Shown: positions 5,790 through 8,358 of the stretch, one piece after another
How positions within the stretch are numbered: position 1 is the first letter of the stretch
Layout: the number at the start of each line of letters is the position of its first letter
Source: Myxococcales bacterium
Lineage (GTDB): Bacteria > Lernaellota > Lernaellaia > Lernaellales > Lernaellaceae
Direction of reading: 5' to 3'
Assembly: GCA_012517325.1 (NCBI GenBank)
Contig: JAAYVF010000104.1
Span: forward strand, 1-34,700
DNA: 34,700 nucleotides
Made by a program: the position numbers and the translations under genes
Notes under the pieces: generated by a model
Told to the model about the DNA's origin: nothing
Databases searched by the model: none
The model's input: the letters and a program-made list of their open reading frames with translations, nothing else

Positions 5790-6722
5790 ATGAACCGGCG
5801 TGATTTCCTGAAAAGCGGCTTGAGCGCGATGGGCTTTCTGGCGGTCGGCGGATCGCTCGCCTCCGGGACGACGGGCTGCGCCAGCGTGCCGCGCCAAACG
5901 GCGGCCGGCGTGCCGACGTTCGATCATCTGCTGGAACAGGGCGCCCGCGTGTTGTGGGTCGGCGCGCATCCGGACGACGAATCCATGGTCGGCGCCATGC
6001 TGGCCAAGGCCGGGCCGAAGCTCGGCAATCCGATTCATTTCTACGTGCTCACGCACGGCGACGGCGGCGAATGCACCCTCCCCGAGGACTGCCACCCGGA
6101 CCTGGGATCGGTGCGCGGCGAGGAACTGAAAAAAGTGGCCGCGCTCTACGGCGCCACGCTCGAGCACGAATACTACTGGAACGCTCCGCTGCCGGTGGAA
6201 TCCTTCCCCAAACGGCATGAAATCGCGCATAAATGGGTCAAGGAAAACGGCGACCCGACACCCAAGATCGCCAAGACGATTCGCGCATTCAAGCCGGACA
6301 TCTTGCTGACGTTCGATCCGAAACACGGTTTTACCGGCCATCCCGAGCACCAATTGGCGTCGCGCTTCGCCACGGCGGCCGTGCGACTGGCCGCGGAGAA
6401 ACAAGCCGCGCTGGACGGCGAACCGTTTCACGTGGCCAACGTTTACTACGGTTTGAATCGCTATGGGATCGCACGCCTGGCCGGCGTCGCCGACCCGTTC
6501 CCAGCCACCGACGTTTTCTACGGCCGGCAACCATGCATCGGCGGCAAGAATTGCCTGGAAGTCATGGGCGAGTTCACCAAACCGCATCGCACCCAGCGCA
6601 ACGACATGGGCACCGCGCGCCTGCTGACCCGCTTCCTGATCAACGCCTATCTCTACCGGGTCGACCCGTTCGTGGAAATCTACGACCCGTTCGAGCCGAC
6701 GGACAAAGTCGGTATGGGGTAG
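5790..6722 (+). CDS. PIG-L (LmbE-like) family deacetylase, Tat-exported lipoprotein
   Basis: The 310-residue protein starts with a twin-arginine signal (RRDFLK at 3-8), and a lipobox-like TTGC places a possible lipidated Cys at 30, so it is probably exported folded and membrane-anchored. The PIG-L zinc site is intact: GAHPDDE with His60, Asp63 and Glu64, and FTGHPEHQLAS supplying the second HxxH element. PIG-L enzymes are zinc-dependent N-deacetylases acting on N-acetylglucosaminyl or related groups; the substrate here is unknown. ATG 5790 is preferred over the in-frame GTG 5784 because gaggtg lies at the right spacing and the Tat motif follows directly. The stop codon abuts the left end of the repeat-flanked insert at 6724-7279. 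Confidence 0.88.
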   Translation: MNRRDFLKSGLSAMGFLAVGGSLASGTTGCASVPRQTAAGVPTFDHLLEQGARVLWVGAHPDDESMVGAMLAKAGPKLGNPIHFYVLTHGDGGECTLPEDCHPDLGSVRGEELKKVAALYGATLEHEYYWNAPLPVESFPKRHEIAHKWVKENGDPTPKIAKTIRAFKPDILLTFDPKHGFTGHPEHQLASRFATAAVRLAAEKQAALDGEPFHVANVYYGLNRYGIARLAGVADPFPATDVFYGRQPCIGGKNCLEVMGEFTKPHRTQRNDMGTARLLTRFLINAYLYRVDPFVEIYDPFEPTDKVGMG

Positions 6723-6723
6723 A

Positions 6724-6764
6724 GGGAATGGCGAATGCGGAATGTAAGAGCGGCTTAGCAGCCG
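6724..6764 (+). repeat. Left arm of 41-bp inverted repeat flanking the four-helix-bundle gene
   Basis: This 41-bp segment is matched perfectly in reverse complement at 7197-7237. Its first 21 bases are three heptamers of the form gggaatg/gcgaatg/cggaatg, the complement of the array at 7217-7279. It starts two bases after the PIG-L stop codon and contains the start codon of the broken gene at 6728. Confidence 0.9.
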
Positions 6765-7129
6765 GCCCAGTCAAGACATCGGTAACGGATTTGCGTGACC
6801 GAACCAAGTTGTTCTCGCTGCAAATCGTCCGTTTGGTCGAAAGTCTTCCGAAAAATCAAATCACCGACGTAATCAGCCGACAATTGCTGCGCGCCGGAAC
6901 TTCGGTTGGAGCCAACTACCGCGCGGTTTGTCGCGCCAAATCAAAGTAAGATTTCATCACGAAGCTGGCGATCGTGGAAGAAGAATGCGAGGAAACCATT
7001 TTCTGGATGGAATTATTGATCGAAAGCGGCATGGTTCCACATTCGCAGCTCGGCGAACTTACCGAGGAAGCGACCGAATTGCCGCGGATTTTTGTTGCTT
7101 CCGCAAAAACTGCAAAGTCGCGAATTTAA
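6728..7129 (+). pseudogene. Four-helix-bundle protein (23S rRNA intervening-sequence type), interrupted by an in-frame stop
   Basis: Read through one stop codon, the frame encodes about 132 residues typical of the four-helix-bundle/S23 family. It has DLRDRTKLFSLQIVRLVESL, then QLLRAGTSVGANYRAVCRAKSK, then DFITKLAIVEEECEETIFWMELLIESG and a C-terminal helix. A TAA at 6947-6949 stands where family members normally have a small residue in RAKSKxDFI; both sides stay in the same frame, so this is a nonsense change and not a frameshift. The first codons (MANAECKSG) are translated from the flanking heptamer repeat. Family members occur inside 23S rRNA intervening sequences and as dispersed copies; their function is not settled. 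Without readthrough only 73 residues are made. Confidence 0.75.
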
Positions 7130-7196
7130 TTCCGTTGAGTTAATTCTATTCCCCGTTCGTCATTCGCCATTATTCCTTGCGGTATGAGCGGTATCG

Positions 7197-7237
7197 CGGC
7201 TGCTAAGCCGCTCTTACATTCCGCATTCGCCATTCCC
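7197..7237 (-). repeat. Right arm of 41-bp inverted repeat flanking the four-helix-bundle gene
   Basis: A perfect reverse complement of 6724-6764; its last 21 bases overlap the heptamer array. Confidence 0.9.
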
Positions 7238-7279
7238 CATTCGAGATTCCCCATTCGGCATTCGCCATTCCCCATTATT
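7217..7279. repeat. Heptamer tandem repeat, nine units
   Basis: Nine consecutive 7-bp units of the form cattcSN (cattccg, cattcgc, cattccc, cattcga, gattccc, cattcgg, cattcgc, cattccc, cattatt). Two more units lie at 7161-7174. The array runs into the TAA stop codon of the AgmX-like gene (7278-7280, minus strand). Such aatg-rich arrays are, from memory, common next to four-helix-bundle genes. Confidence 0.85.
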
Positions 7280-8210
7280 ACCTCACTGCCGTGAACACGT
7301 ACGGCGCCTGCACCTCGGCCGTGCGGCCGAGCGGCGCGGGCGTGCGGATGCCTTGCAGCACCCGGGCCACGCAGGCGGCGACCTCGGCGTTGCCCATCGT
7401 GTCGCGCGTCACCACGGCCGATTGCACCTCCCCCGCCGCGCCGAATTGCAGCCGCAGAACGATCGTCCCGGACAAGTCGCCGTGCAGCTTCAACACCTGT
7501 TCGTAGCAATTCTTGACCGCCGGCATCCGGGCGCGCAGCGTGTGGCGGATTTGCCGGTCGACATCGGCGTCGCCGGTCGCCACCTCCGGCGGCTGCACCC
7601 GGGAAATCACCTTGTGAATCTCGCGTTCGGCCAAGGGCACCGATCCCGGATTCGGCAGCAGATTCTGTACCGTGGTCGCGACCGCCAGCGGCCCTTCGCC
7701 GCCGCCGAGCGGCTGGCGCCCGTCGCGCGAAGCGATCCGCACGCCGCCGGCCGGCAGGTTCGACAGATCGTTGGAGCCGTGGATTTTTTCGAACCAGTCG
7801 CCGCTTTTGTCCTCGCGGGTCAACAGTTCGATCAATCCCTGATTGCGGTTGAGCAGCTCGACCAGGTTGCCGCCGGGGCCTTTCGCGGCCGCCGGTCCGC
7901 CTTGCCCGCCGCCCGGGGCGCCCGGCTGCCCGCGGTCGCCGAGGTCGGTCCGATTCACGGCCTCGACCACGCGCGGCGGAATGATGTCATCCGTAAAATC
8001 GTTGGGGATCTCGATCAGGTTCGGCACCTCGATTTTGCCGATCGTCAGATTCAACTGCTCCTCGATCGGCAACACGCGAAAGACCTGCCAAAGCGCGAGG
8101 TGGACGATGAAGGAAGCCAGCAGGCAGAGCAGCAGTTTGCGATCGTAGTAGTATTCCCAATCGATGCAAAGAATGTCCGCTCGGAAATCCGACCAGGTGT
8201 ACTTCGGCAT
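7278..8210 (-). CDS. TonB-like protein with AgmX/PglI-type C-terminal domain
   Basis: The 310-residue protein has a short cytoplasmic N-terminus, one membrane helix (about 25-43, LLLCLLASFIVHLALWQVF), a Gly/Pro-rich periplasmic linker (90-115) and a C-terminal domain (215-310). The C-terminal domain starts DADVDRQIRHTLRARMPAVKNCYEQ and holds a probable Cys235-Cys280 pair. This architecture matches the AgmX/PglI group of TonB-like energy transducers found in myxobacteria and relatives. Such proteins link inner-membrane proton-force motors to envelope machines such as gliding complexes; no ExbB/ExbD genes are present here to name a partner. ATG 8210 is preferred over further upstream codons because gggaggt precedes it and family homology starts there. 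Confidence 0.8.
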   Translation of the reverse strand: MPKYTWSDFRADILCIDWEYYYDRKLLLCLLASFIVHLALWQVFRVLPIEEQLNLTIGKIEVPNLIEIPNDFTDDIIPPRVVEAVNRTDLGDRGQPGAPGGGQGGPAAAKGPGGNLVELLNRNQGLIELLTREDKSGDWFEKIHGSNDLSNLPAGGVRIASRDGRQPLGGGEGPLAVATTVQNLLPNPGSVPLAEREIHKVISRVQPPEVATGDADVDRQIRHTLRARMPAVKNCYEQVLKLHGDLSGTIVLRLQFGAAGEVQSAVVTRDTMGNAEVAACVARVLQGIRTPAPLGRTAEVQAPYVFTAVR

Positions 8211-8358
8211 GCTCGACCTCCCGGCAAAGGGTGCAACCATCCCGCCGAGCGGCACCGCGGCCGGAGGCCGCCTGGCGTCCGCCAACGCCGACACCGAGAG
8301 CCGCCCTCGATTACTTGGGACAGCGCTCGGTTGAAGAAAGTTGCCGACCGGGAAAAAA

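Follow-up and report, generated by a model that had tools for sequence, protein, structure and literature searches.

An S23 four-helix-bundle gene between inverted heptamer arrays probably represents a decayed copy of a small mobile element

S23 (four-helix-bundle) proteins have mostly been described in connection with rRNA intervening sequences (IVSs); to our knowledge, the family has no known function, and we know of no catalytic residues in these proteins. Small repeats of cyanobacteria were reportedly treated by Elhai et al. in 2008. The rRNA IVS of Coxiella, 428 nt in length, has a terminal stem of 28 bp and contains an S23 open reading frame (ORF) preceded by tandem heptamers (GACAGAT), the number of which varies among strains; its S23p relative from Xanthomonas forms a homopentamer (PMC4990558). 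23S_rRNA_IVP ORFs have been found in rRNA insertions of CPR (PMC11270868). Heptamers have also been described in Xanthomonas, Nostoc, and Beggiatoaceae (PMC4692102, PMC4679880). The GGGAATC repeats of Xanthomonas form 70 to 75 convergent inverted pairs per genome (PMC4692102), and mobility was suspected for the TAACTGA repeats of Beggiatoaceae (PMC4679880). In PMC4692102 and PMC4679880, we came across no reference to S23 or four-helix genes, and a search of the literature available without subscription revealed no general link between S23 genes and matched, element-specific heptamer arrays.

The locus described here lies in a stretch of 34,700 nucleotides (positions 1 to 34700; referred to as the window) that encodes many predicted secreted proteins with Asp-rich stretches (DDDDD...), several with GCGC at the end. 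The cassette of interest is located between a PIG-L deacetylase gene (PF02585; 5784 to 6722, plus strand) and a convergent gene (7278 to 8294, minus strand), both of which flank the element and lie outside it. Its left arm (6724 to 6764, plus strand) and right arm (7197 to 7237, minus strand) form an inverted repeat that is complementary at 41 of 41 positions across a separation of 432 nt; the longest inverted repeats in 20 mononucleotide shuffles of the cassette region measured only 8 to 14 bp. As originally predicted, the cassette fits between two stop codons: a single base separates the PIG-L stop (TAG, 6720 to 6722) from the repeat, and the last bases (CCCCATTATT, to 7279) of the outer right heptamer array (7217 to 7279, minus strand) overlap the stop of the convergent gene (7278 to 7280). 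The description of the convergent gene as AgmX-like was not upheld, as it had no Pfam hit.

Three left heptamers (GGGAATG, GCGAATG, and CGGAATG; 6724 to 6744, plus strand) correspond to the right-array unit in reverse complement (L021). They are read as the first codons of the S23 gene (6728 to 7129, plus strand), whose ATG at 6728 lies inside the array and whose product begins MANAECKSG.... The proposal that this is a 23S-IVS-type four-helix-bundle gene with one TAA was confirmed by a PF05635 score of 59 bits (cutoff, 33.8), a match to the solved structure 2rld (E = 4e-20), and a single in-frame TAA at 6947 ahead of the final stop (TAA, 7127 to 7129). On the minus strand beyond the gene lie a short array-REP-array unit (7144 to 7241) and an inner right heptamer array (ATTCCCCGTTCGTCATTCGCCATTATT; 7148 to 7174). 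The 41-bp arm stood as a perfect repeat but not as one component: it joins three heptamers to 20 bp of a separate REP-like palindrome (TGTAAGAGCGGCTTAGCAGCCGCGAT), represented in the left arm by a partial copy at 6745 to 6764 (plus strand; TAAGAGCGGCTTAGCAGCCG...). The window cassette is a composite of an S23 element and a REP-like palindrome of which the genome has further, scattered copies.

The window copy is decayed and probably immobile. An in-frame stop occurs at the same codon (RAKSK*DFI) in the window gene (TAA, 6947) and in a gene of another genome (L082 of G006; TGA) to which it is 65% identical. Programmed readthrough at 6947 was considered in view of this shared position and is the less likely reading: nearly all other listed members of the subfamily lack an internal stop, and the two genes are not sisters on the tree, so the agreement is probably a coincidence.

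When used as the query, the whole cassette had a single match in its source genome. A scan of genome contigs gave one locus, and a phage collection gave no match. Its parts recur. The right part (7144 to 7241) is found without a gene at several intergenic places in the same genome (contigs C85, C62, C124, C29, and C99), with best identities of 80 to 93% (91% at C85). Dozens of copies of the REP-like core (TGTAAGAGCGGCTTAGCAGCCGCGAT) are present, mostly free of heptamers and often in regularly spaced groups. Palindrome arrays of this REP-like type on C38, C83, and C110 (L014, L017, and L018) have a spacing of ~95 bp and a common spacer (CCGTCTTTCCGTGCGCCAGCCGGAA), some of them near contig ends, and those on C81 and C114 have a spacing of 36 bp. 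The genome search for heptamer arrays proposed in the original prediction found them both with and without a gene. On C6, a long heptamer array is followed directly by GGCCCAGTCAAGACA, the first 15 bases of the nonarray part of the window gene; judged from these bases, this site probably retains what is left of another copy that had the gene.

At the window site itself, no clean empty allele was seen among the sites compared. In a member of the same family (G001, L172), the order of the PIG-L gene and the convergent gene is kept, and the gap of ~460 bp between them contains neither S23 nor heptamers. The original prediction had named two findings that would make mobility unlikely, i.e., a relative with the gene but no repeats in this gap or repeats that occur nowhere else; neither was encountered.

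To place the cassette in a wider context, we collected PF05635 genes from other genomes and plasmids (main set, 121 loci); S23 or four-helix proteins were present in 162 of 386 sampled genomes. The flanks of S23 genes carry tandem 7-bp arrays upstream and a reverse-complement array downstream. The best 28-base self-match at lag 7 reached at least 19 of 28 in 76 of 120 upstream and 70 of 121 downstream flanks, compared with 10 of 230 control windows taken ~1 kb from the genes. Enrichment was strong only at lag 7 and its multiple, 14; other lags were close to background, with a minority of loci at lag 8. When each upstream flank was compared with the reverse complement of the downstream flank at the same locus, 90 of 121 loci scored at least 13, versus 0 of 241 permuted upstream-downstream pairs. 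Matched arms were likewise found for 16 of 20 further genes (22 of 380 permuted pairs) and for 22 of 29 loci from a viral contig catalogue (39 of 812 permuted pairs); relatedness among elements, and hence similarity of their words, probably accounts for the permuted matches in these two later sets. The matched-array architecture is general for S23 genes, although approximately one-quarter of S23 loci lack clear matched arrays, and the DGR-type PF05635 genes L022 and L091 have none.

The repeated word is specific to each element and common to both of its ends. Of the 82 loci with an array on each side, 58 had the same consensus word (6 or 7 of 7 bases, in any phase) in the two arrays, compared with <2% of random pairs. 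Elements of one genome differ in their words (in G022, for example, GATGATT, GGCTAAT, and CAAGGCT), and once protein identity is down to ~50%, words resemble each other little more than background. The arrangement of the arrays recurs, but, as a correction to the original prediction, the heptamer sequence is no family signature, because it differs between elements. Other unit lengths were 8 bp (15 loci), 6 bp (3 loci), and 9 bp (1 locus). Units of equal length group together on the protein tree (14 changes versus 18.2 when shuffled; 0 of 200 shuffles gave so few), with the 6-bp units in a single clade. The upstream unit has a polarity, with G exceeding C in 37 elements and C exceeding G in 3 (P = 2e-8). 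Elements measured 429 to 865 bp (median, 515 bp), and one or both ends usually lay within 10 bp of the end of a neighboring gene, so the tight fit of the window cassette between two stops is typical. In one genome (G014, L070 to L072), approximately ten head-to-head pairs of short S23-like genes with a hairpin of ~50 bp between them were observed, apparently a two-gene variant of the element.

Compared with the 23S rRNA IVSs that carry an S23 ORF (Coxiella and Leptospira), the window cassette has the same protein family, a similar size, a terminal inverted repeat, and tandem heptamers. It differs in its position between two protein genes, and the elements studied here are intergenic and free-standing: the suggestion that a copy might lie inside an rRNA gene was not borne out, with no rRNA match in the 20 S23 loci scanned, where we reject insertion into rRNA, although the Coxiella rRNA IVS shares the heptamers (PMC4990558). 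Furthermore, the heptamers here are matched at both ends and are element specific, neither of which is described in PMC4990558. The Coxiella IVS heptamers would fit as a special case of the matched-array rule. The heptameric repeats (STRR) of cyanobacteria, the GGGAATC repeats of Xanthomonas, and the TAACTGA repeats of Beggiatoaceae are similar in being tandem 7-bp units in intergenic regions, whereas the units studied here are parts of elements and vary from one element to the next.

Filled and empty versions of one site were found in conjugative cyanobacterial plasmids. Plasmids of Trichormus variabilis (L104) and Scytonema (L109) contain the element; L110 to L113, whose flanks are ~97% identical, lack it. 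The empty site (GTTAAAAAGTAATTAACAAAT in L110 to L113; ...AAAAAGTAATTAACAAAT...) corresponds to ...AAAAAGTAAT-element-GTAATTAACAAAT... in the filled plasmids, and L114 is an internally deleted copy. In L104 and L109, the arrays and the S23 gene arrived together between two copies of GTAAT, a 5-bp duplication containing the upstream gene's stop codon. This is the only pair clean enough for reading a target-site duplication; further filled and empty pairs (L106/L116, L102-L103/L123-L125, L119/L126, L120-L128/L127, and L122/L129) are too diverged for such a reading, and a general test for target-site duplications, in which element boundaries were fuzzy, showed no enrichment. A gap between cas6 and cas4 holds insertions with different words in L107 and L118 and is empty in L117. 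The L118 insertion, on a plasmid of Pseudanabaena galeata, has approximately ten AAAAGCT/AAAAGCC units in the cas operon, direct beside the gene and inverted further out.

Multiple copies within genomes point in the same direction. One genome (G059) has four copies at different sites that are 97 to 99% identical over ~430 to 470 bp, with a common left end (TTAAGCGCAATG, with a single-base difference in L064) and a common right end (GTGAATACAAGACG); one copy is followed by shortened copies head to tail, and no target-site duplication was seen for these copies. Another genome (G266) has two copies that are 97% identical over 499 bp and have the same internal TAA; they differ at 11 of 130 positions in the flanking arrays and at 2 of 315 positions in the genes. 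The arrays and the S23 gene insert together into formerly empty intergenic sites, often beside a gene end. The arrays change in copy number and, in the G266 pair, in sequence faster than the gene. At another locus (L179), arrays of the Trichormus type enclose a noncoding hairpin cargo instead of a gene. The existence and spread of stop-bearing copies (G266 and the window) and of gene-less array units indicate that the moving machinery can act in trans. The original idea of a small dispersed element with the arrays possibly as its ends thus gained from the recurrence of arrays in the source genome, the matched arrays at S23 genes elsewhere, and the joint insertion into plasmids; recognition of the arrays as ends is our inference.

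The arrays might instead be products of local slippage, or regulatory hairpins, that grow beside S23 genes and do not mark the ends of a mobile unit. Copy number does shift by slippage, as between L104 and L109, whose arrays are two units apart, and among Coxiella strains, and gene-less arrays also exist. However, empty sites miss the arrays and the gene together, both arms carry one word that differs between elements, and copies at different sites have the same arrays, which makes this explanation very improbable.

The S23 protein is maintained by selection. The dN/dS ratios of S23 genes were 0.06 to 0.24 for the more diverged pairs with estimable dS (dS was near saturation in several), which indicates purifying selection. 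The presence of S23 was associated with that of Y1 transposases (PF01797), which were found in 34 of 37 S23-positive and 31 of 61 other genomes (P = 2e-5; P = 1.2e-5 after accounting for genome size, reverse transcriptase, and DDE_Tnp_1), and the association was replicated in 288 other genomes (95 of 125 versus 65 of 163; P = 7.5e-10). No association was found between S23 presence and DDE_Tnp_1 (P = 0.30). A Y1 hit was missing in 3 of 37 and 30 of 125 S23-positive genomes. We also considered RAYT genes as an autonomous partner with the same ends and rejected this possibility, since matched heptamer arrays were absent at all 39 Y1/RAYT genes inspected. Approximately half of these genes have inverted ends of their own, as seen at L181, L182, L193, L205, L208, and other Y1/RAYT loci, and several of them, in different genomes, share a type such as GGGGTCAGGTCTTGACATT..GACATT. 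With the 39 genes free of arrays, the Y1 link is a correlation only, which shared ecology could explain; a Y1/HUH (RAYT-like) transposase is nevertheless the best current candidate for the enzyme, on the basis of co-occurrence and the end structure of one family.

These data also bear on the possibility that only the REP/BIME-like repeat family is mobile, via RAYT, and that the four-helix gene of the window is a passenger. The REP-like core far outnumbers the gene in the window genome and also occurs in heptamer-free arrays, Y1 transposases are present in that genome, and S23 and Y1 co-occur. Nevertheless, heptamer arrays accompany S23 genes across genomes whether or not a palindrome is nearby, they are absent at RAYT genes, and the cyanobacterial insert consists of arrays and gene only; we consider passenger status to have a slim chance of being correct. 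Like miniature inverted-repeat transposable elements (MITEs) and REP/RAYT systems, the S23 elements are small and intergenic, with inverted ends, nonautonomous copies, and gene-less derivatives. They differ in having variable tandem arrays as ends and in carrying a small nontransposase gene. The fixed-sequence terminal inverted repeats of MITEs and classical insertion sequences are lacking, as the unit sequence varies between elements, and a dispersed palindromic core as in REP/RAYT systems, here with dozens of copies in the genome, enters the S23 elements solely as a component of the window cassette.

A further alternative is movement through an RNA intermediate, in which the inverted arrays would form an IVS-like RNA stem, S23 would take the part of its homologue Avd alongside a reverse transcriptase supplied in trans, and slippage of that enzyme would generate the arrays. 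The homology of S23 to the four-helix-bundle protein Avd of diversity-generating retroelements (DGRs; PF05635, PMC10053308) and the excision of rRNA IVSs as RNA by RNase III (PMC4990558) are compatible with such a route. The predicted fold of the window RNA is strong, with a long closing stem (z = -8.1), and the source genome has a DGR of its own with an RVT_1 hit nearby. This DGR-like locus (L022, on C11) comprises an Avd-type PF05635 gene, the only other one in the genome, adjoining a reverse transcriptase gene, together with a formylglycine-type variable protein region. The RVT_1 hit on C11 is the sole one in the genome, and the window contig has none; thus, the reverse transcriptase gene that adjoins an Avd gene is lacking at the cassette. 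Avd genes (L022 and L091) also differ in being array free, and free S23 elements do not follow the distribution of reverse transcriptases: S23 was not associated with RVT_1 (13 of 37 versus 15 of 61 genomes; P = 0.36), and the RVT_1 hit was absent from most genomes with at least 5 S23 copies. A reverse transcriptase acting in trans was therefore rejected. Mismatches between arms were of the G-U type in 142 cases and of the A-C type in 121 (P = 0.22); with no wobble excess, there is no sign of selection for RNA pairing, and pairing of the arms at the RNA level was also rejected. Overall, an RNA intermediate seems unlikely.

We therefore favor, with a probability of roughly three in four, the reading of the window cassette as a decayed copy of a mobile element of ~430 to 600 bp in which an S23 (PF05635) gene is framed by inverted arrays where a short word, usually of 7 bp, is repeated in tandem, and which moves by the following mechanism. 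The arrays would be the recognized ends, read by their repeat period and inverted arrangement and not by a fixed sequence. The S23 protein, which is pentameric in the Xanthomonas relative, may bind or pair both arrays as the element's own end-binding ring. Cutting and joining of strands would be carried out at the DNA level by another enzyme in trans, for which a Y1/HUH (RAYT-like) transposase is favored. Slippage and template switching between the facing arms may keep the two ends alike. In the history of the window copy, the REP-like palindrome would have entered the arrays later, and the gene would have gained its stop at 6947.

More tentatively, and with doubt prevailing over confidence, the S23 elements could constitute a distinct class of mobile elements whose ends are recognized by period and inverted arrangement. 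The S23 ring would then act as a ruler of ~7 bp (6 or 8 bp in some clades) for private words, and the rRNA IVSs and the orphan heptamers of cyanobacteria and Xanthomonas would be derived from this class.

The interest of the window cassette lies in the general rule that this decayed copy exposed. S23 genes with matched inverted arrays are a recognizable mobile element with definable ends, which provides a testable context for the protein family. S23 elements are a likely source of unexplained 7-bp repeats in several phyla, and they pose the question of how an element is recognized when the length of a repeat, and not its letters, is conserved.
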